This document shows, piece after piece, positions 3,636-29,146 of a DNA stretch of 64,000 nt (positions are counted from its first letter, which is position 1; each line of letters begins with the position of its first letter). The stretch comes from Saxibacter everestensis. GTDB lineage: Bacteria; Actinomycetota; Actinomycetes; Actinomycetales; Brevibacteriaceae. The position numbers and the translations under genes are program-made. The stretch lies in contig NZ_CP090958.1 in NCBI RefSeq assembly GCF_025787225.1, forward strand, positions 3,706,550 through 3,770,549. Direction: 5' to 3'. Below the pieces are notes generated by a model, which saw only the letters and a list, made by a program, of their open reading frames with translations, had not been told where the DNA came from and did not search any database.

Positions 3636-5837
3636 ATGGCTGACGAAGCAGTACGGGAAGCCCAGCAGTGGGTTAACGCCACATACAAAGGCGTGAACGG
3701 TTACACGGCTGTGGCCGAGGACGGAATTACCGGTTTCGCAACGATCAAGGCACTCACCAAAGGCCTGCAGCACGAGCTCGGGGACGCCAAGGTGGATGGG
3801 ATCTTTGGTGATGGGACTCTTGCGAAGTTGACGGCACAGTTCCCGGTCGTGAATGAGAACACAACGAACAAAAACGTGAGGATCATTGTCCAGTGCGCCA
3901 TGTACTGCAAGGGATATGACGGCGGCGGCACCGACGGGATCTTCGGCGCAACCACCAAGAGTGGCATTTCTCGATTGACGACCGACATGGGCCTCGGTGG
4001 AGGGATCGGGATCACTCCGAAGGTGTTCCGTGGCCTCCTCACCATGGATGCCTATGTCGTGACGTCCGGTGGAACTGAGGCGGTACGGCGGGTCCAGCAG
4101 TGGCTGAACGCGACATACACCAAGCGCGAGAAGTTCATGATCATCCCCTGTGACGGGAACTTCTCACGGGACGTGCAGAAGGCCCTAGTTCGCGCACTAC
4201 AGTTCGAGCTCGGACAGAGTGACGCCGCAGCCGATGGAATCTATGGCGCAGGAACCGCTAGCGGAATCAAAGCCCAGGCGGTTCTGTCGGTCGGGTCGGC
4301 CGACACTGCAAAGAAATTCGTGCGGCTGTTCCAGGCAGCGATGATCTTCAATGACCGCACCGTGCCCTTCGACGGTTCGTTCACCGCGTCGACGAGCTCG
4401 TCCGTCAGCGAGTTTCAACGCTTCATGGTGTTGCCGGTCACCGGCAAGGGGGATTTCCAAACGTGGGCAGCACTGCTGGTCAGCACGGGTGACGCTGAAC
4501 GTCCTGGCACCGGCGCCGATACCCGTTTCCCTATCTCCAGTGCTCGAGCTGCAAAGCTGTACGCTGCCGGGTACCGAGTGGTGGGCCGCTACCTCACGAA
4601 CGCAACCAGTGCCGGCGCCTTCGACAAGAAGATACAGCCGGGGGAGACCACTGCGATCTTCGACAACAAGCTGCGCCTCTTCCCGATCTTCCAGACTTAC
4701 GGCGGTCACGCCAGCTACTTCACCCGGGAGCAAGGTGAACGCGACGGCGTGGCAGCCTATGACGCCGCTCAAGAGTACGGATTCCACCGGGGAACCATCA
4801 TCTACTTCGCTGTCGATTACGACGCCATCGACGAAGAAATCTCATCGACGATCTTGGCGTACTTTACCGGCGTGGTTTCTGCGCTCCGGTTCAGCGGCAG
4901 CAAGTACTTGCCGGGCGTGTACGGGTCGAGGAATGTGTGCCTTCGTGTCTCCAGGGAAACGGGTATCAGCCGAAGCTTCGTCAGCGGAATGTCCACGGGG
5001 TTCAGCGGGAACCTGGGGTACCCGATGCCGGATAACTGGGCGTTCAACCAGATCAAGGAGTTCCACTTCGAGGACCCGGACCCTGAGTTTCGCATCGATA
5101 AAAGCATCGTGTCGGGGCGCGATCAGGGGCAAAGCTCTGTCTCCGCACCGGCCGCGCACGACACCGCGTTCGATGCCGCGTACACGACTCAGATGACTAA
5201 CGAGATCGTCGCCTGGTTCGACCAAAACATGACCGGGCCACAGAAAGCTGTCGCCATTCATCTCGACCGGGCAGCAAACGTGAAGTTCATGCTTCAGTTT
5301 GACGCTCTAACCACGAGGTTAAGCCGTTCCTACAACATGAAGAAAGCACTCATCCAGACTGTGCTGCTGTGGGAGTACTGCCTGCAGAACAGACTGGATG
5401 CTGCCGCCGACGTGGCGGTCAAAGATTATTACGTGGCGCGGATGGCCGGAATCACTCCACCATCTCAGCTGCCTGACGACTCCAGCACTGGCGTGTGCCA
5501 GATCTTCGCCCGCACCGCTATCGATGCCACCAACTTCGCCGTCGGCAAGGGGATCTATTCCAGCCGGACGTTCGATGCTGCCAACTGGAGAGACGTCTGG
5601 CAGATGTGGCAGAACCTTCAGGAGGAGGCGGGCAACATCGCTCAAGCCGCGCTCGTCCTCATCCGAGCGGCGAACCAGGCCGGCGTCGGAGTGGACTACT
5701 GGAACTTCTCAGCCGCCAGCGTCCGGGCTGTTCTTGCCCGATACAACGGCACCAATGCTGACGCTACAGAGTACGGACGCCGCAATTACGGCCTGTACAC
5801 AATCCTTGAGAAGTACAACGCCCTGTCCCGAAGCTGA
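3636..5837 (+). CDS. Peptidoglycan-binding DUF1906 (Rv2525c-like) protein with lysozyme-like C-terminal domain
   Basis: 733 residues, without signal peptide. Residues 1-290 hold several peptidoglycan-binding-like repeats (VREAQQWVNATY, DGITGFATIKAL, DGIFGDGTL). Residues about 298-505 are a DUF1906/Rv2525c glycoside-hydrolase-like TIM barrel (VVGRYLTN, IFPIFQTYGG-like, IYFAVDYDA, GVYGSRNV, WAFNQI). Residues about 560-733 look like a lysozyme/transglycosylase-type helical domain: a possible catalytic Glu in LLWEYC, then SSTGVCQIFARTAI and ARYNGT with YGRRNYGLY. That last assignment is my inference. The start follows a TTAGGAG ribosome site. It is a paralog of 6564-8108 and probably binds or remodels cell wall. 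Confidence 0.82.
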   Translation: MADEAVREAQQWVNATYKGVNGYTAVAEDGITGFATIKALTKGLQHELGDAKVDGIFGDGTLAKLTAQFPVVNENTTNKNVRIIVQCAMYCKGYDGGGTDGIFGATTKSGISRLTTDMGLGGGIGITPKVFRGLLTMDAYVVTSGGTEAVRRVQQWLNATYTKREKFMIIPCDGNFSRDVQKALVRALQFELGQSDAAADGIYGAGTASGIKAQAVLSVGSADTAKKFVRLFQAAMIFNDRTVPFDGSFTASTSSSVSEFQRFMVLPVTGKGDFQTWAALLVSTGDAERPGTGADTRFPISSARAAKLYAAGYRVVGRYLTNATSAGAFDKKIQPGETTAIFDNKLRLFPIFQTYGGHASYFTREQGERDGVAAYDAAQEYGFHRGTIIYFAVDYDAIDEEISSTILAYFTGVVSALRFSGSKYLPGVYGSRNVCLRVSRETGISRSFVSGMSTGFSGNLGYPMPDNWAFNQIKEFHFEDPDPEFRIDKSIVSGRDQGQSSVSAPAAHDTAFDAAYTTQMTNEIVAWFDQNMTGPQKAVAIHLDRAANVKFMLQFDALTTRLSRSYNMKKALIQTVLLWEYCLQNRLDAAADVAVKDYYVARMAGITPPSQLPDDSSTGVCQIFARTAIDATNFAVGKGIYSSRTFDAANWRDVWQMWQNLQEEAGNIAQAALVLIRAANQAGVGVDYWNFSAASVRAVLARYNGTNADATEYGRRNYGLYTILEKYNALSRS

Positions 5838-20680: not shown

Positions 20681-23389
20681 ATGAGCCACGAAGCCGAAAT
20701 CCTCAACACCATGGGCATTCCGCTCATCCGGGAACGCATTGACCCGATTGCGCCGGTAAGCACGTCACCCGAGGTGGACGGCTGGGACCCGGCCGCGCCG
20801 CATGCGCGACCGCTGACCGACCTCGGCAGGGCCGAACACGAGCTGTCGCCTGCGCTGCTGGACCGCCTGGTCGAACTATCCCGCAGCCCGCAGTTGCTCG
20901 TCGCAACCGACTATGACGGCACAATCGCGCCAATCGTGGAGATCCCATCCCAGGCGTACCCCCAGCCGGGATCGGTTGTGGCGATGCGCGCGCTCGCGAC
21001 CTTGCCGAACACCGAGGTGGCGGTGATCTCGGGACGTTCCCTGCGGGACCTCGCCGCGATGTCGCGATTGCCGATTGAGGTGCAACTGGTCGGTTCGCAC
21101 GGTTCCGAATTCGATATCGATACCGTGTCCAGCCTGCCCGCGACATTGACCGAACAGCTGGCCAGGCTCAAGGCGGACGTCGCACAGCTGGTCTTGGAAT
21201 GTCCGGGAATGCGGCTGGAGGATAAGCCGGCCGGTGTCGCCATTCACCTGCGTGGAGTTTCGCAAGAGGTCTACGACAAGAGCCTGGCCCTGATCGATCA
21301 GATTTCCGCCCGTGACGAGGTCTACGCCACCTCGGGCAAAGACGTGGTCGACCTGTCCGTGGTCAAAACGTCGAAGGGCGCAGCGCTGCGTGCGCTGCGG
21401 GCAAGACTCGGCTCCTCGGCGGCGCTGTACATCGGCGACGACACCTCCGATGAACGGGCGCTGGCCACCCTGCAGGGGCCGGACCTTGGAATCAAGGTGG
21501 TTGGATCCGGGGAGGACACCCTCACCGCGGCATCCGTCACCGTGCCGGACCCGGCCACTGTGTCGCTCGTGCTCGCCACGCTGTTCGACTTGCGCCGCGC
21601 CTGGCTCTTCGGCCGCAGTGCGGTGCCGATCGAACGCCACAGCATGCTGGCGAACGGCCGGTCGACGGCACTTGTCGACCCAGCCGGCCGGATCTGCTGG
21701 ATGCCGGACCCGTTCCCGCATTCGGCGTCGATGTTCTCCGAGATTCTCGGCACCGAGGCCGCAGGGTTCTACGCCATCGCGGCAGCAGATGGCTCGAAGC
21801 CGTTGACCCAGCGATACATCCCGGGTACCACCACCGTCGAGACTCGCTGGCCCGGATTCAAGACGACGGACTACCTTGGCCCGGCCGCTTCCTCCACCAC
21901 GACGCTGGTCCGGGTTGTCGAGGGGGAACGTCCCGCGACGGTGACTTTCGCGCCGCGGCTGGATTACGGCACCGCGACGAGCCGGCTCGAAGTGGTCGAA
22001 AATGGCGTCCGGGTGATCGGAACCTCCGAGCCGATCGTGTTGCATGCACCCGGAGTGAAATTCCGGATTCAGGCCGAGGGCCAATCGGACACCGCGATCG
22101 CCGAGTTGCCGATGGGCGGCGACCCCGTCGTGCTGACCCTGACCTGTGGCGGCTCGGTCGCGGAACAGGACCGCATCCGCAGGGCAGACGGCGGCGAACC
22201 AGCACAGCGGCACAAGGCCAACGAGTACTGGACGTCCTGGGTCGAAACGCTCGATGTACCGCAGTTCAGGCGGGAGGCCGTGGTCCGGTCGGCGATCACG
22301 CTGCGCGGGCTGTGCCATGAGCCCAGCGGCGGTGTTCTCGCCGCTTCAACCACCTCGCTGCCGGAAGGGATCGGCGGCACCCGTAACTGGGACTACCGCT
22401 ACTGCTGGCTGCGCGACGGCTCGATGACGGTCAACACGCTGCTCTCGCTGGGATCCACGACCGAATCGATCGGCTTCCTGAATTGGCTCAGCGAAATCCT
22501 GTCCCGCTCGAACGGTCCGGAGCAGCTGCACCCGCTGTACGCCGTCGACGGATCCACGCTCTCGACCGAGGCCGTTCTCGATGCTCTGCCCGGTTACGCC
22601 GGTTCCCGTCCCGTCCGGGTCGGAAACGCCGCCGAGCACCAGGTCCAGCTCGATGTTTTCGGCCCGATCACCGAGCTGCTCGACGACCTGACCGAATACC
22701 TCGGCGAACTCAGCGATGAGCACTGGTTCCTGACCCAGCAGATGGTCACCGCGGTCGAACGGCGCTGGATGGAACCGGACCACGGCATCTGGGAAGCTCG
22801 CCGGGCGCCACGGCATCACGTTTACACCAAGGTAATGTGCTGGGTGACCGTCGACCGGGCGCTGCGGATCGCAACCCGGCACGGCCGCGCGGTACCGGGT
22901 GACTGGGAGCAGTTACGTGCCACCATCGCCGACGATGTACTCACCCAGGGTTGGAGTGAGGAGTCGAAGGCGTACACCGTCGCCTACGGCGCCCCGGATC
23001 TCGATGCGGCCACGCTGCATATCGGGCTTTCGGGCCTGCTGCCGCCGGACGATCCACGGTTCGCCTCCACCGTTGAGGCGATCGAGCGGGACCTGCGCCG
23101 CGGGCCAACCGTTTTCCGTTATCACTACGATGACGGCCTACCGGGTCTCGAAGGTGGCTTCCACATCTGCACCACCTGGCTGATCGAGGCGTTCATCATG
23201 GCGGGGCGGATCGATGACGCCAAAGAGTTGTTCGCCAGGCTGACCGCGTTGATGGGACCGACCGGCTTGCTGCCGGAAGAGTACGATCCGGTGCCGGAAC
23301 GTCATCTCGGTAATCATCCGCAGGCATACTCGCACCTCGGCTACATCCGGTGCGCCCAGCGATTGGCCCCGTACCACGTCACGGTCTGA
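20681..23389 (+). CDS. Bifunctional trehalose-phosphatase / GH15 glycosidase
   Basis: 902 residues. Residues about 60-310 are a HAD-type trehalose-6-phosphate phosphatase: DYDGT (77-81, nucleophile Asp), ISGRS, KTSKGAAL and GDDTSDE. Residues about 315-900 are a GH15 domain: a beta-sandwich (about 320-510), then the (alpha/alpha)6 barrel with GGTRNWDYRYCWLRDGSM at about 567-584 and the second acidic motif LPEEYDP at about 866-872. In actinobacteria GH15 enzymes of this kind are often trehalases. The fusion would make trehalose from its phosphate and perhaps also split it, which suggests control of the trehalose pool. No OtsA gene is nearby. Confidence 0.88.
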   Translation: MSHEAEILNTMGIPLIRERIDPIAPVSTSPEVDGWDPAAPHARPLTDLGRAEHELSPALLDRLVELSRSPQLLVATDYDGTIAPIVEIPSQAYPQPGSVVAMRALATLPNTEVAVISGRSLRDLAAMSRLPIEVQLVGSHGSEFDIDTVSSLPATLTEQLARLKADVAQLVLECPGMRLEDKPAGVAIHLRGVSQEVYDKSLALIDQISARDEVYATSGKDVVDLSVVKTSKGAALRALRARLGSSAALYIGDDTSDERALATLQGPDLGIKVVGSGEDTLTAASVTVPDPATVSLVLATLFDLRRAWLFGRSAVPIERHSMLANGRSTALVDPAGRICWMPDPFPHSASMFSEILGTEAAGFYAIAAADGSKPLTQRYIPGTTTVETRWPGFKTTDYLGPAASSTTTLVRVVEGERPATVTFAPRLDYGTATSRLEVVENGVRVIGTSEPIVLHAPGVKFRIQAEGQSDTAIAELPMGGDPVVLTLTCGGSVAEQDRIRRADGGEPAQRHKANEYWTSWVETLDVPQFRREAVVRSAITLRGLCHEPSGGVLAASTTSLPEGIGGTRNWDYRYCWLRDGSMTVNTLLSLGSTTESIGFLNWLSEILSRSNGPEQLHPLYAVDGSTLSTEAVLDALPGYAGSRPVRVGNAAEHQVQLDVFGPITELLDDLTEYLGELSDEHWFLTQQMVTAVERRWMEPDHGIWEARRAPRHHVYTKVMCWVTVDRALRIATRHGRAVPGDWEQLRATIADDVLTQGWSEESKAYTVAYGAPDLDAATLHIGLSGLLPPDDPRFASTVEAIERDLRRGPTVFRYHYDDGLPGLEGGFHICTTWLIEAFIMAGRIDDAKELFARLTALMGPTGLLPEEYDPVPERHLGNHPQAYSHLGYIRCAQRLAPYHVTV

Positions 23390-23470
23390 TCTGGGCGAGG
23401 GCATGACCACATGACGGTCTGATCCGGGCGAGGGCATGACCACTTGACGATCTGATCCGGGCGAGGGCAT
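23381..23470. repeat. Tandem 33-bp repeat, about 2.7 copies
   Basis: Units start at 23381, 23414 and 23447 with ACGGTCTGATCYGGGCGA and have a strict 33-bp period; the first overlaps the 3' end of the trehalose enzyme gene. No spacer-repeat alternation, so it is a minisatellite, not a CRISPR. Confidence 0.75.
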
Positions 23471-23506
23471 ATTAGCGCATTTGTTTGTGCTGAGTAGTGT
23501 TGGAGC

Positions 23507-23887
23507 ATGACTGAGTCCGCGCGTCTCGCATTGGTGATCGAAGATGACGATGACATTCGTCGGCTGCTCGAGGTGGTTCTGAGCCAGGCAGGCTTCGTGG
23601 TGGAGTCTGCGGCGACGGGATCGGCCGGTGTTGCCGCCGCACGCGAGTCGGCCCCCGACCTGATCACCCTGGATATCGGCTTGCCGGACATCGATGGCTA
23701 TGAGGTCGCCCGCCGGCTGCGCGAGTTCTATCGCAACCACCTGGTGATGCTGAGCGCGCGGTCTGAAACCTATGACGCGGCCCTTGGCCTCGAGGTGGGT
23801 GCCGACGCTTACCTCACCAAGCCGTTCCGCCCCCGCCAGTTGCGCGAGGTGCTGGGCCGGATTCTGTCCGAAGCTCCGGTGGACTAG
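23507..23887 (+). CDS. Single-domain response regulator (REC only)
   Basis: 126 residues, a stand-alone receiver domain. The acidic cluster is EDDDD (about residues 12-16), the phospho-Asp is in TLDIGLPDIDGYE (about D57), the conserved Ser/Thr in VMLSARS (about 84) and the Lys in YLTKPFRP (about 104). There is no output domain, so it would act through protein partners. It is convergent with the glycosyltransferase and histidine kinase genes, and the three probably form one signalling locus. Confidence 0.9.
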   Translation: MTESARLALVIEDDDDIRRLLEVVLSQAGFVVESAATGSAGVAAARESAPDLITLDIGLPDIDGYEVARRLREFYRNHLVMLSARSETYDAALGLEVGADAYLTKPFRPRQLREVLGRILSEAPVD

Positions 23888-23912: not shown

Positions 23913-24015
23913 CGAAACGGTCCGGTATGTGAAACCGCGCAAGCGAAACGGTCCGGTAAGTGCGCGAAGAGGGGCTACATAACCCCCCACCTGAGGGAGA
24001 AACCGGACCGTTTCG
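23913..24015. repeat. Two direct copies and one inverted copy of a 14-bp word
   Basis: CGAAACGGTCCGGT lies at 23913-23926 and 23944-23957, and its exact reverse complement at 24002-24015. The second and third copies can form a long stem-loop with an inner GGGG/CCCC stem. It lies between the convergent response-regulator and glycosyltransferase genes, so it may end transcription from both sides or be a REP-type repeat. Confidence 0.65.
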
Positions 24016-24035: not shown

Positions 24036-25853
24036 TCAGACCGGCCGCTTGAGATCGTCGAGGTAGTCGTTCCTGAGCACACGTACCGTGCTTTCGCCGG
24101 TCAGCTGCAGGAACGGAAGTTCTTGCCGACAGGCGGCGAAATCGCCACCCCTGGCCAGTGCTGCAACCCGCCCGCCGAACAGTTCAAGACGTTCGGCGCC
24201 GATCATGGCTGCCGACACCTGGATGCTGCCGGCGGCATCGCGCGACGACATGATGTCTTCGGCAGCCAGGGCTTCCTTGAGCCGGGCAAGGCGAGTCGGC
24301 CACATAATGGCGAAGGCCGAGACGAATTCGAGCGCTAGATCGTTGCGCTGATCGAGTTCTCCGGCGAGCGCTTCCAGCTCTTCCCGGTTGACCAGGGGCA
24401 GCGCGAGTTCGTGGATAGGCGTGACAATGACGGGTGCAATTCCATCGGCATTTCGCATTGTCTTTGCCCAGCTGTTCTCGCCCGTGACCAGCCGCATGAT
24501 TGCCCGAGGGTAGTAGACGTAGGTGAGATAAACGTACACGAGAGTGCCCAGGCCGGTCATCGTCGCGGCAAGGATTCCCATTCGTTTGTTAGCGACCTTA
24601 CGGTAAATCGGTCCCCAAACCGCGTACGGAAGAATCAGGTACACCATTGCCGCCAGAACGGTGACCAGGGCAGAGGCGCTGTCGACGAAACCGAACCGAT
24701 TCTCCTGGATCGCCGTCCACAGCAGAATCGGAACCAGAATCAGGTTGAGCATCATCAGCCATGGCTGACTCATGAAGTAGTTCACTTCGAGATGGCCGGC
24801 GAGGCTGAGTTGGCCACTGCGGCGTAATCGCGGCAGGATGCTGGCGCACTCCATGATCCCCTGAGCCCACCTGGTGCGTTGCGTCAGCAGCCGCCCGAAG
24901 TACGGAAGTGCCTCCTGGGAGACGTGAGCCTCAGGCACGTAGTGGTTGGTATAGCCGAGTTCAAGGATGTACAGGCCGAGTTCGTAGTCCTCGCTGAGCT
25001 TGCGTCCCCAGGGTTTTCCGTGTCGTTCGGCAAGGTCGTCGAGGACGGTCAGCCGGGTGAACTGTCCGTTGCCACCCATACCCACCGTGCCGGTTTTGGT
25101 CCGCAGCAGCTGCATGGCCGAGTTCGTCGTCCGGAATTCGACGTCCTGCATCCGGATCAGGTATCGGCCCAGCAGGTTTGCCCAACGACCGAGGTGCGGC
25201 ACGGGTCGAACGTCATTGCGGTTCTTCATCCAGACCTCGAGCTGCGCCGCGCCGACCGATTCCGAGCCGAAAGTTTCCGGCCCGGACAGGAAACTCAGCG
25301 CATTGTCCGAGAGATAGCCGTCGGCATCGAGCACACCGACAACGGCCCGGCGGCGAGCGGCCTGGTCGGTCCCGACATAGTCGGAGACGACGGAATAGGC
25401 GGCGTTGAGCGCTTCACCCTTGCCGACTCGTGCATCGGGGCGAACCCGCGAAATCAGGTGCACGCGGACATCGAAGTCCATCAGCTCCTTGACAACCCGG
25501 GCGGTGGAATCCTGGGAGGCATCGTCGATCACCCAGACATGCGCCCTCGGGAAGGACGTCCGGGCCGCAGACACGGTCGCGGCAATAACGTTCTCCTCGT
25601 CACGGCAAGGCACGAGCAGGTGCCAGTCGAAATCGTCGGAGTCTCCTGGTGAATTCCGGCGCCGGCGCAAATAGGTGATGATCAGCAGCGAAATGTAGGT
25701 CAGGGCGATGGAAGCTGTCAACGTCACCGTCACCAGTGCGACATCGCGCCAGCCGTCCCGGCCGAAGCGGCCGAATACGCCGGAAGCGCAGAACAACAGG
25801 AAGGCCGACGTGCCGTAAACAATCGCGACCAGCGTCATCGCCAGGTTCTTCAC
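24036..25853 (-). CDS. Membrane glycosyltransferase (GT2) with degenerate Hpt-like C-terminal domain
   Basis: 605 residues. Two N-terminal membrane helices, a GT-A/GT2 catalytic domain (about residues 75-345: VPCRDEE, VIDDASQDS, GVLDADG, SEDYELG, QRTRWAQG giving the D, DxD, ED and QxxRW signatures of processive synthases) and about four C-terminal membrane helices (about 370-470). Residues about 495-600 resemble an Hpt phosphotransfer domain, but the phospho-His position is Gly (AAGSIQVSAAMIGAERL where AAHTLKG is typical). It probably makes an extracellular polysaccharide under control of the adjacent kinase/regulator. Starts with GTG after AAAGGA. Confidence 0.8.
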   Translation of the reverse strand: MKNLAMTLVAIVYGTSAFLLFCASGVFGRFGRDGWRDVALVTVTLTASIALTYISLLIITYLRRRRNSPGDSDDFDWHLLVPCRDEENVIAATVSAARTSFPRAHVWVIDDASQDSTARVVKELMDFDVRVHLISRVRPDARVGKGEALNAAYSVVSDYVGTDQAARRRAVVGVLDADGYLSDNALSFLSGPETFGSESVGAAQLEVWMKNRNDVRPVPHLGRWANLLGRYLIRMQDVEFRTTNSAMQLLRTKTGTVGMGGNGQFTRLTVLDDLAERHGKPWGRKLSEDYELGLYILELGYTNHYVPEAHVSQEALPYFGRLLTQRTRWAQGIMECASILPRLRRSGQLSLAGHLEVNYFMSQPWLMMLNLILVPILLWTAIQENRFGFVDSASALVTVLAAMVYLILPYAVWGPIYRKVANKRMGILAATMTGLGTLVYVYLTYVYYPRAIMRLVTGENSWAKTMRNADGIAPVIVTPIHELALPLVNREELEALAGELDQRNDLALEFVSAFAIMWPTRLARLKEALAAEDIMSSRDAAGSIQVSAAMIGAERLELFGGRVAALARGGDFAACRQELPFLQLTGESTVRVLRNDYLDDLKRPV

Positions 25854-25896
25854 GTATTTTCCTTTGCTGCACTGCCGGAGGCATCAAACACCGAAT

Positions 25897-27573
25897 TCAC
25901 TGCGAGCCTATTGACAGGTCGTAAGGCAAAGTTACCCGAAACGTGGTTCCTACTCCGGGGGTCGAATCCACCGAAATGCTGCCGCCATGGCTTTCGATGA
26001 TTTCCTTGCTGATCGACAGGCCGAGGCCGATTCCGGGGATTGCTTTTCTTTTCGCTGATGGGGTTCGAAAGAACCGGGTGAAGAGGCCGGAAATTTCCTG
26101 CGGGGACATGCCGATGCCGGTATCGGCGACCTCGACGATGACCGCGTGTGATGCCGGGCGGGCGCGCACGGTCACTGCCCCTCCCTTTCCGGTGAATTTG
26201 ATCGCATTGGAGATCAGATTGTCGAGCACCTGGGCTATCCGGGCCGGGTCGACGGCAACCTTCGGCGTCTCGGCGCAATCGTGCCGCAATTCGATGTTCC
26301 GGGCATCGGCTCGTGGTTGTGCGGATTCCACGGTTCGCCTGACGAACTTCGCTACATCGGTCGGTTCACGGTGCAGCTTGAGCTTGCCGTCGGCTGCCTG
26401 GGCCGAGATGAGCAGGTCCTCGACGATCTTGAGCACCTGTTCCGCGTTGCGGCTGATCACCCCTAGGTATGTTTCGGCTTCCTCTGATCGCGGTTCTTCG
26501 TTCTCCAGCACGAGGTCGAGATAGCCGATGATCGACGTGATCGGAGTTCTGAGCTCGTGAGAGACGGTTGAAACGAAGGACTCCTTGGCCTGGAGTGAAT
26601 CCATAAAGCTGGTGACGTCATAGAAGACGACGACGGAGCCTTCCCGTTTACCGTTTTCGTCGATAATCGGCTGAGCCGATGCGGAAACGGCGCGCTGGGT
26701 TTCCGGATCGTCGCCCAGGAACATCGTCAGGCCGGTAAAAGTCTCGCCCTGGGCTGCCCGATAGGCTGCCCTTTCTTCGGCGGCGAAGGGGGTTGTTCGG
26801 TCGGCGTGAAATATCAGATGCCCGGCCTCGGTCTTGTCTGCGTTGCCGGGTGGCGACGCCAGCGCGTGAATCGTATCCTGCGAGCTATTCGTAATGACGT
26901 CATTGCCGTCTTTGTCGATGACCAGAATCGCCACGTTGACGCTGTTGATGATGTTGTCGAGCAGGCGTTCACTTCGCTGGGTCGTCGCCAGCTGCACGCG
27001 TAGTTCTCCGGCGGTTTGCGCCAGCCGATTCCGCCGGCTCACGAGCTGCTCACGCATCGCGACCACCATGCTGGTGATCATGAAAATTACCAACGGCATC
27101 AGGAGATGCCGGGCGACGATGAACGGGTCCGGGTTCTCGGTGATCCGGAAAATACTGGGTAGCGATGTACCCACCACGGTCAATATGGTTGCCAGGACAA
27201 TGCCTCTGCCCTTGAGTAGGAGAGCTAGCCACAACGCGGGAAAGAAGCACAACAGGCTCAGAGTGGTGGTGTCCACCAGGGAGACATCCCGGCAGATCGC
27301 CACCGAGACGAAGTCGATAACCGGGACGGCGGCGATCCAGCCGGTGGAAACGTGCCACCAACGAACGAATCGGGCCACAATCGTCACCAGGAGCACCGCG
27401 ATGAAACCGGTGAGGTATTGCGGATCCATGAAGATGTCGGTCCGGTACGCCGCGATGAAGCCGGATACCAGTACGAAGACGATGACGAACGGTAGCTGCT
27501 GGGCTACGACCATCCGGTGTGGGCGGTCCGAGAAGAATGTCGCGAAATAGCTCTTGAACAGGGAGGGCGACAT
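25897..27573 (-). CDS. Membrane sensor histidine kinase with PAS domain
   Basis: 558 residues. Five to six membrane segments (about 25-185) form the N-terminal sensor. A PAS-like domain follows (about 215-330, INSVNVAILVIDKDG). Then the HisKA helix with the phospho-acceptor in VSHELRTPITS (about 345) and the HATPase domain: N box DNLISNAIKFT, G1 VADTGIGM, G2 GIGLGLSIS and GVGTTF. It stands directly upstream of the Hpt-like glycosyltransferase in the same direction, with a 43-nt gap, so they are probably co-transcribed. The orphan receiver at 23507 is the likely phospho-target. Confidence 0.9.
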   Translation of the reverse strand: MSPSLFKSYFATFFSDRPHRMVVAQQLPFVIVFVLVSGFIAAYRTDIFMDPQYLTGFIAVLLVTIVARFVRWWHVSTGWIAAVPVIDFVSVAICRDVSLVDTTTLSLLCFFPALWLALLLKGRGIVLATILTVVGTSLPSIFRITENPDPFIVARHLLMPLVIFMITSMVVAMREQLVSRRNRLAQTAGELRVQLATTQRSERLLDNIINSVNVAILVIDKDGNDVITNSSQDTIHALASPPGNADKTEAGHLIFHADRTTPFAAEERAAYRAAQGETFTGLTMFLGDDPETQRAVSASAQPIIDENGKREGSVVVFYDVTSFMDSLQAKESFVSTVSHELRTPITSIIGYLDLVLENEEPRSEEAETYLGVISRNAEQVLKIVEDLLISAQAADGKLKLHREPTDVAKFVRRTVESAQPRADARNIELRHDCAETPKVAVDPARIAQVLDNLISNAIKFTGKGGAVTVRARPASHAVIVEVADTGIGMSPQEISGLFTRFFRTPSAKRKAIPGIGLGLSISKEIIESHGGSISVDSTPGVGTTFRVTLPYDLSIGSQ

Positions 27574-27973: not shown

Positions 27974-29146
27974 TTACCGGCACCCGACCAACCGATCGAG
28001 ATGCTGGTTGAGCTCGACTCCGATGTCAACGGCGTTCGCGTCGTAGAGCCATTGGATCTGCATGCCATCCCACAGCGCAATGAACCAGAGTGCTTCCCGC
28101 CAGGGATCGCCGGTCTGCGCACCCTCCGCCCGAGCTTCCTCGAAGAGGGCACCGAAGTACCGGATGCCATCGTGGTAGCGCGTCGTAAAATACCCGTGAG
28201 CGGGATGAGTGGTCGGCGTTGCCTCGCACACGAGTACTGTGTAGAGCTCGACGAGACCCGGTTCGATCGCACTCATATGAGCTCCTTCGACGATCCCAGC
28301 AAGGGTCGGCGTGAGGCCCGCGGCGCGACGAGCCGCTGTGTCCTCGATGCGGGCGTCACGCTGCCGTAGCACTGTCTCGAGGAGGGCGTCCTTGCTGCCG
28401 ACATGGTGCAGGAGCGTCGACTTGGAGATGCCGACCTGCCGTGCAATGTCTTGCAAGCTCGTCGCGCTGAAGCCGCGTTGCGCGAACAGGGCCGTGGCGC
28501 TCTGGACGATGTGAGCGCGTTTCGTGCGCCCGGGTGCATAGCCGCGACTATGATCGGCGAAGATGCGCCCCCCGGGGGATTTGGTCATCGACACACTGCT
28601 CAGCGCCGGGTTCGGTGCCGCAGGCTCCCCCGAGAGGAATGCCTCGAGCTCGTTCGGCACGTCGATATCGAGGTAGAGCGACGCGATCTGTAGGCCATCC
28701 CACACCGCGGCGACGGCGGCGGGCATCGGCTCCGCGAACTCGGAGCCTCGGCGCAGCCGCTCGTAGCGGCGCGCGAAGTGCTCGTGGCCCGGATGCTGCT
28801 CGGATGTCGCCTCCCCAGCAAGCGCGGAGAACAGCTCGACATAGCCAGGCATTGCGGCATTGCGGCGGGCGAAGGCGATAGCGATCGAGTCCCCAGTCAA
28901 CTGGGGGTGATCGGCCGCCCAGCGAAGGTTCGCGTGTTCCCAGCGGTCGAGCAGGGCGAGCAGGAGCTCGTCCTTCGACGAGTAATAGCGGAGGAGCGAG
29001 GCGTGCGAGATACCGGTCCGCGCGGCGATGTCGCGGAGGGACACGCCTGCGAAACCGGACTCCGAGAAGAGCACGTAGGCAGCGTCGAGCAACTCGTTCT
29101 GCCGGGCTCGGCCCGGCGCGTAGCGGCGGACAGCAGTGTTGCTCAC
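27974..29146 (-). CDS. Tandem (single-chain) TetR-family regulator
   Basis: 390 residues made of two complete TetR modules in one chain. The first has its HTH at about residues 12-60 (RYAPGRARQ, FAGVSLRDIAARTGISHASLLRYY) and the second at about 202-250 (GYAPGRTKR, FSATSLQDIARQVGISKSTLLHHV). Each is followed by a helical ligand domain ending in a similar stretch (AAVWDGLQIASLYLD and IALWDGMQIQWLYD). Normal TetR proteins are homodimers of about 200 residues; this one may be a covalent pseudo-dimer. GTG start after GAGGAGG. It is divergent from the MFS/GH3 operon. Confidence 0.88.
   Translation of the reverse strand: MSNTAVRRYAPGRARQNELLDAAYVLFSESGFAGVSLRDIAARTGISHASLLRYYSSKDELLLALLDRWEHANLRWAADHPQLTGDSIAIAFARRNAAMPGYVELFSALAGEATSEQHPGHEHFARRYERLRRGSEFAEPMPAAVAAVWDGLQIASLYLDIDVPNELEAFLSGEPAAPNPALSSVSMTKSPGGRIFADHSRGYAPGRTKRAHIVQSATALFAQRGFSATSLQDIARQVGISKSTLLHHVGSKDALLETVLRQRDARIEDTAARRAAGLTPTLAGIVEGAHMSAIEPGLVELYTVLVCEATPTTHPAHGYFTTRYHDGIRYFGALFEEARAEGAQTGDPWREALWFIALWDGMQIQWLYDANAVDIGVELNQHLDRLVGCR

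Follow-up and report, generated by a model that had tools for sequence, protein, structure and literature searches.

A histidine-less Hpt-like domain on a membrane glycosyltransferase as a candidate docking platform for a receiver-only response regulator

The locus in Saxibacter everestensis

The window analyzed here is a stretch of 64,000 nucleotides of the Saxibacter everestensis genome (contig NZ_CP090958.1, positions 3,706,550 to 3,770,549), and our focus is a group of three neighboring genes within it, which encode a sensor kinase, a membrane-bound glycosyltransferase family 2 (GT2) synthase and a response regulator. The C-terminal part of the synthase resembles a histidine phosphotransfer (Hpt) domain without the phosphorylatable histidine, and this pseudo-Hpt domain may act as a docking platform for the regulator.

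The synthase gene (24036-25853, minus strand; 605 amino acids) matches Pfam Glyco_tranf_2_3 and Hpt as well as NCBIfam NF053846. Upstream of it, on the same strand and separated by 43 nt, lies the gene of the sensor kinase (25897-27573, minus strand; 558 amino acids), in which Pfam identifies PAS, HisKA and HATPase domains. From the other side, a response regulator consisting only of a receiver (23507-23887, plus strand; 126 amino acids), recognized by Pfam Response_reg and by conservation, is convergent with the synthase gene across a gap of 148 nt. The PAS histidine kinase and the convergent receiver-only regulator are both present as the initial annotation had described them, except that the acceptor aspartate of the receiver, given there as D57, is D56. 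The receiver carries E12/D13/D14, D56, S83 and K105, and since all phosphorylation residues are thus intact, its phosphorylation is to be expected.

The membrane-bound catalytic part of the synthase (residues 44-470; 24444-25724, minus strand) scores 535.4 bits against NF053846, the XrtP-associated glycosyltransferase family, which is above the curated cut-off of 520. D110/D111, D176/D178, E288/D289 and Q325/R328/W329, which we take to be the Asp, DxD, ED and QxxRW motifs of processive GT2 synthases, are invariant in 15 aligned rows, and the nearest solved folds of a full-length model of moderate confidence (predicted local distance difference test, pLDDT, 74.5) are cellulose and hyaluronan synthases. 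The enzyme probably builds a sugar polymer. The linker at residues 462-483 falls below a pLDDT of 50, and for this reason the placement of the tail relative to the active site is left uninterpreted.

Two repeat elements accompany these genes. Between the receiver and the synthase, positions 23913-24015 hold an inverted repeat (CGAAACGGTCCGGT / ACCGGACCGTTTCG), a 16-mer of which has 55 matches in the genome at up to two mismatches, compared to five for the reversed control; many copies form opposed pairs 57-58 bp apart, as in a dispersed repeat resembling repetitive extragenic palindromes (REP) or bacterial interspersed mosaic elements (BIME). Positions 23381-23479, which lie directly before the start of the receiver gene, hold a 33-nt direct repeat in three tandem copies, and a 24-mer taken from them finds no other match in the genome at up to three mismatches.

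An Hpt fold without the phospho-histidine

Several lines of evidence place the end of the synthase among Hpt proteins. The Pfam Hpt model (PF01627) matches residues 510-582 with an E-value of 2.5e-4 and 21.7 bits in hmmscan, where the curated cut-off is 24.6, and reaches 26.9 bits, above that cut-off, in the genome scan. AlphaFold2 (AF2), given 15 aligned tails, returned a confident helical bundle (pLDDT 85.4), for which the best 32 Foldseek matches are all Hpt proteins, with a top E-value of 1.4e-3 and none at or below 0.001. In the VIA structure comparison, the best match in the PDB is HptB of Pseudomonas aeruginosa (7c1i; Z 16.5, root-mean-square deviation 1.9 over 115 residues); rows 1-23 are Hpt proteins and unrelated helical proteins begin at Z 11.8, in a range (below about 13) where scores of helical bundles may carry little meaning. 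HptB is also the best PDB match by sequence (E 0.0037). On these models, the last approximately 120 residues of the synthase are an Hpt-type four-helix bundle.

HptB and the tail differ at the decisive position, as HptB has the histidine and the tail does not. In a profile alignment, an Ala/Gly column of the tails sits on the histidine of the HptB AHS motif, which we take to be its phospho-histidine, and in S. everestensis the site expected by PF01627 is occupied by Gly542 (codon 24228-24230, minus strand). The possibility that the phospho-histidine lies elsewhere in the tail was ruled out, since the alignments show no conserved histidine. Judged by its sequence, the tail is a pseudo-Hpt domain rather than a phosphotransfer protein. 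The initial annotation had read a C-terminal Hpt pattern with glycine at the phospho-histidine position, and structure prediction and the HptB alignment bear out both parts of this claim; its location at the C-terminus also holds, while the modeled boundaries, residues 484-602 (24048-24404, minus strand), replace the last 110 residues or 490-605 proposed before.

Phosphate transfer might in principle have moved to another residue, for example to Ser543 beside the missing histidine. This position holds a serine in 150 rows and a threonine in the other three of the 153-row alignment of domain-regulator pairs, and one regulator-paired relative, L133, has a histidine at the phospho-site. HptB, however, likewise has a serine next to its histidine, which gives the conservation of Ser543 a structural reading, and we know of no Hpt protein that uses this serine. 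We therefore regard such transfer as very improbable.

Glycosyltransferase fusions in related genomes

Synthases with this tail were found in 21 distinct cases, namely 13 from a first contig profile search, the present genome, six from an order-wide scan and the locus L317. One of them, L118, carries its gene in two reading frames and was kept; L014, whose glycosyltransferase gene is cut by a contig end so that no tail is visible, was not counted as a fusion. The split of the L118 gene (6617-8583) represents a frameshift or a sequencing error.

The initial annotation had left it to be seen whether homologs keep the histidine, and none of the 21 fusions does: the column holds Gly, Ala or Val throughout, whereas Ser543, Met550 and Gly552 are fixed. 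Across these sequences, the absence of the histidine is not a matter of chance. All 21 fusions stand beside a receiver without a DNA-binding extension; the residues following the receiver domain number 1-16 in the 20 fusions of the first set and one in L317. Among the 20 fusions examined for gene order, a kinase lies within 5 kb in every case and the receiver is convergent with the synthase in 19, the receiver being located on the other side of the synthase in Arthrobacter L003, as it is in L317. D56, K105 and Ser/Thr83 of the receiver are present in all 153 rows of the pair alignment. In one genome, G658, a synthase system and a stand-alone system adjoin each other.

The synthase family also exists without the tail. 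In the order-wide scan, 39 of 396 genomes match the family at an E-value of 1e-40, 20 of them above the cut-off, and 13 of 30 fetched loci possess the tail. Within flanks of about 1.5 kb, all 13 tailed loci have a receiver and 12 show a kinase signal; among the 17 tail-less loci (eight above the family cut-off and nine below), neither a receiver nor a kinase was detected at any. The present enzyme shares its core with the XrtP-associated family, but differs from these 17 loci by its tail. An exosortase link was rejected as an explanation for the glycosyltransferase, as the genome holds no match to PF09721 at an E-value of 1. Exosortase-like matches adjoin the glycosyltransferase in four of 16 tail-less genomes, with a single one exceeding the cut-off, and the 13 tailed genomes show none; since the profile finds exosortases in just four of the 16, a divergent exosortase could escape it.

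The wider family of His-less Hpt-like domains

The tail is one member of a larger family of Hpt-like domains that have no histidine and mostly stand alone. A search with the tail gave matches in 50 of the 396 genomes of the order; outside the synthases, these matches are by appearance mostly small stand-alone proteins, which commonly read L-S-L/I/V-K/R in place of the H-T/S-L-K of true Hpt proteins. The histidine is absent at 83 of 86 places (14 loci of the first contig search and 72 of the order scan); the three exceptions are L117 and L143, both with true Hpt-type motifs, and L133. The last (5126-5434, DAVHSVTTSS) is the sole His-bearing domain of the order set that is paired with a regulator, and its sisters in the tree, L126 and L129, have no histidine. 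L148-L152 duplicate L004, L010, L005, L011 and L001, and the tree and tallies leave them out.

Beyond the order, a search across the class gave matches in 68 of 394 genomes. The best 30 places were read; eight of them were known already, and at the other 22, which include one repeat, the site is Leu in nine, His in nine and Ser in one, while the remaining three are two Glu and one His. The tail profile thus does pick up His-bearing Hpt domains, and many of the further class-level places lie in long reading frames and may be hybrid kinases. Within one family of Micrococcales, matches at an E-value of 1e-8 occur in 207 of 375 genomes, with 10 in a single genome. The 107 places fetched from that family include at least eight repeats of earlier places (within L214-L320: L217, L219, L231, L233, L235, L237, L238 and L318). 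Furthermore, L161 repeats L008 and stays in the 153 rows, where more near-duplicates may remain, and L175 repeats L135.

Outside the synthases, the domain is frequently paired with a regulator, a pair being defined by a receiver of more than 90 bits (80 in the one-family and class set) at a distance of no more than 2 kb. Such a receiver accompanies 41 of the 65 non-synthase places of the order scan, which gives 42 pairs with L014 included; 41 of these 42 are convergent, 29 have a kinase within 5 kb, and in all of them 119-201 amino acids follow the receiver domain. Those extensions that were inspected read, by eye only, as winged helix-turn-helix (wHTH) regions of the OmpR/PhoB type. Among the 107 places of the Micrococcales family, 82 are paired in this sense and the other 25 are not. 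Together with ten class-level pairs, 90 of 92 are convergent, the exceptions being two Arthrobacter synthase fusions, one of which repeats L003. At least 100 amino acids follow the domain in 85 of the 89 complete receiver frames of this set; the four receivers with fewer than 20 belong to three synthase fusions (two of them repeats) and to L301, where a PAS-EAL protein, a pseudo-Hpt domain and a receiver-only regulator occur together (39-2300).

Surface assembly recurs among the neighbors as a tendency, not a rule. Directly upstream of the 65 places, which include the true Hpt proteins L117 and L143, heuristic gene calls give T2SSF proteins in eight cases, signal peptidase I in six, GT2 enzymes in three and GGDEF proteins in two; five, four, three and one of these, respectively, were searched against families and the rest were assigned by similarity. 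At L110, a further GT2 gene lies downstream of the domain. Five signal peptidases carry the pseudo-Hpt domain as a C-terminal fusion (L098, L106, L109, L099 and L108): Peptidase_S26 matches all five, three above the cut-off, and TIGR02228 is above its cut-off in both of the two tested. As the SipW model gives 55 and 75 against a cut-off of 190, they are labeled SipW-like. Other neighbors, including an aldehyde dehydrogenase, an amidohydrolase and a radical-SAM enzyme, have no link to the surface.

Flanking genes of the window

On one side of the three genes, positions 20681-23389 encode a 902-amino-acid fusion of a trehalose-phosphatase and a TREH_N/GH15 trehalase-like enzyme; on the other, a protein with two tandem TetR-type DNA-binding regions, matched by NCBIfam models at about residues 11-68 and 207-276, is encoded at 27974-29146.

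A proposed docking platform for the receiver

From these sequences, we consider it probable that the pseudo-Hpt tail is a docking platform for the neighboring receiver, which would directly control the synthase. The sensor kinase would phosphorylate the receiver at D56; the receiver, having no DNA-binding part, would dock in a phosphorylation-dependent manner on the Hpt-like bundle of the membrane-bound synthase, and the docked receiver would change synthase activity, and with it polymer synthesis, in either direction. A receiver without a DNA-binding part needs a protein target, and the adjacent Hpt fold is of the kind that holds receivers; because the histidine is absent, docking and not transfer is the natural reading. 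The initial annotation had likewise proposed docking and control without transcription. This proposal is partly supported. The fold, the missing histidine, the intact receiver-only partner and its absence from the tail-less loci, the surface-assembly proteins near part of the domains, and the co-divergence and joint branching described below speak for it, the covariation analysis and the genome G648 against it.

For 42 pairs, distances between domains correlate with those between receivers at r 0.70, a value matched by two of 5000 within-genome re-pairings, and for 18 pairs from eight multi-copy genomes at r 0.82, matched by one of 5000. With 2304 re-pairings possible, one or two matches are about as frequent as the true pairing itself would turn up. 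By sequence, domain and regulator diverge together; this shows that the partnership is stable, but taken alone it does not show contact.

Several observations weigh against direct docking. The co-divergence could come from stable linkage alone. At G648, kinase and receiver-only regulator are kept with no glycosyltransferase between them, and the genome is not among the family matches of the order-wide scan. No receiver lies within 2 kb at 24 of the 65 non-synthase places. Five His-bearing stand-alone Hpt proteins (L172, L174, L177, L179 and L182) are convergent to a frame with a weaker receiver match (48.8-54.0 bits), so that convergent order alone is no mark of a docking-only domain. Since most family members stand alone beside extended regulators, direct enzyme control is not the sole mode of the family. 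Finally, covariation between domain and receiver in the 153-row set placed no interface. Mutual information with average product correction ranked A513 with receiver residues R19 and V23 at the top (0.461, compared to at most 0.241 in 20 full pairing shuffles), and receiver helix 1 accounts for 20 of the 100 highest-ranking pairs, where 10.3 are expected. When co-changes were counted on the tree, the same two pairs ranked 1050 and 2815 of 12168, and the receiver face obtained 24 of the top 100 pairs, with 23.9 expected. In sliding windows, the pseudo-His helix was matched or beaten by 10-15 of 88 (its own window included) for tree co-changes, and helix 506-522 by 3-8 of 88 for mutual information, a measure confounded by relatedness. 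Residue pairs fitting the canonical interface had been picked post hoc and were not used.

This outcome of the covariation analysis, like G648, would suit a tail that is simply a structural or dimerization domain of the synthase, with kinase and receiver acting elsewhere and their linkage due to operon inheritance. The trees point the same way: in unrooted trees of 62 pairs, a single branch sets apart the synthase-fused domains (97/90), and likewise their receivers (100/100), the group being set by a receiver tail of fewer than 20 amino acids, which coincides with the fusion. A single origin is therefore likely, and the synthase loci are not independent cases. Against a purely structural role, many other loci encode the domain in a gene of its own that is paired with a regulator; at one of them, L301, this regulator is receiver-only and an EAL protein lies next to it. 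On balance, we consider this explanation unlikely.

Slightly less likely still, in our estimation, is that the domain acts as an antagonist or sink that titrates the receiver or phospho-receiver, the fusion merely placing this sink at the membrane. Plant pseudo-HPts such as AHP6, which resemble the tail as Hpt relatives without a phospho-histidine in two-component signaling but are small phosphorelay proteins not known to be fused to enzymes, are said to act as such antagonists or sinks in phosphorelays, and the many small members beside regulators with a wHTH-like extension would suit sequestration. The receivers of the synthase fusions, however, have no output domain from which they could be kept, and the linkage to a synthase, a signal peptidase or T2SSF proteins in part of the loci suggests effectors.

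The proposed control of the enzyme has parallels in known systems. Cellulose synthase BcsA, a fold match of the modeled synthase, is likewise a membrane-bound GT2 enzyme with a C-terminal regulatory domain, which there is PilZ, a domain that binds cyclic di-GMP (c-di-GMP), and here is Hpt-like. In Myxococcus xanthus, the phosphorylated single-domain regulator EpsW is reported to activate the membrane-bound exopolysaccharide enzyme EpsZ directly (PMC12802240), so that direct regulator control of polysaccharide enzymes exists. The likeness lies in a receiver-only protein with intact phosphorylation residues; the enzyme differs, EpsZ being a monotopic phosphoglycosyl transferase and the present one a GT2 synthase that itself carries a pseudo-Hpt domain, and the term Hpt is absent from the main text of that paper. 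Putative HPTs have also been described in Caulobacter, where H81 of HmrX is the proposed site (PMC11481889). A bacterial pseudo-Hpt output domain like the present tail was not found among the matches listed in the open PubMed Central literature, a scope outside which subscription papers and preprints lie.

Implications for two-component signaling in Actinomycetes

More tentatively, and with slightly less than even confidence, we propose that two-component systems of Actinomycetes use the conserved pseudo-Hpt family as a portable output module, which would capture a phosphorylated receiver instead of phosphate and bring it to surface-building machines such as GT2 synthases, SipW-like signal peptidases, T2SSF-type secretion or pilus systems and c-di-GMP enzymes. 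Receivers without the extension accompany all synthase fusions found and one other domain, the one beside the EAL protein. In the synthase branch, the regulator would have lost this C-terminal extension and with it its DNA-binding part, making the pathway purely post-translational.

For many Hpt-like proteins of Micrococcales, phosphate transfer is improbable, which calls for caution with such annotations. Most response regulators act on DNA, whereas here one branch is without the extension exactly where the neighboring domain joins an enzyme. This branch may thus show, as a natural experiment, how control of transcription turns into direct control of an enzyme, and the tail and its receiver offer a specific, testable docking pair.

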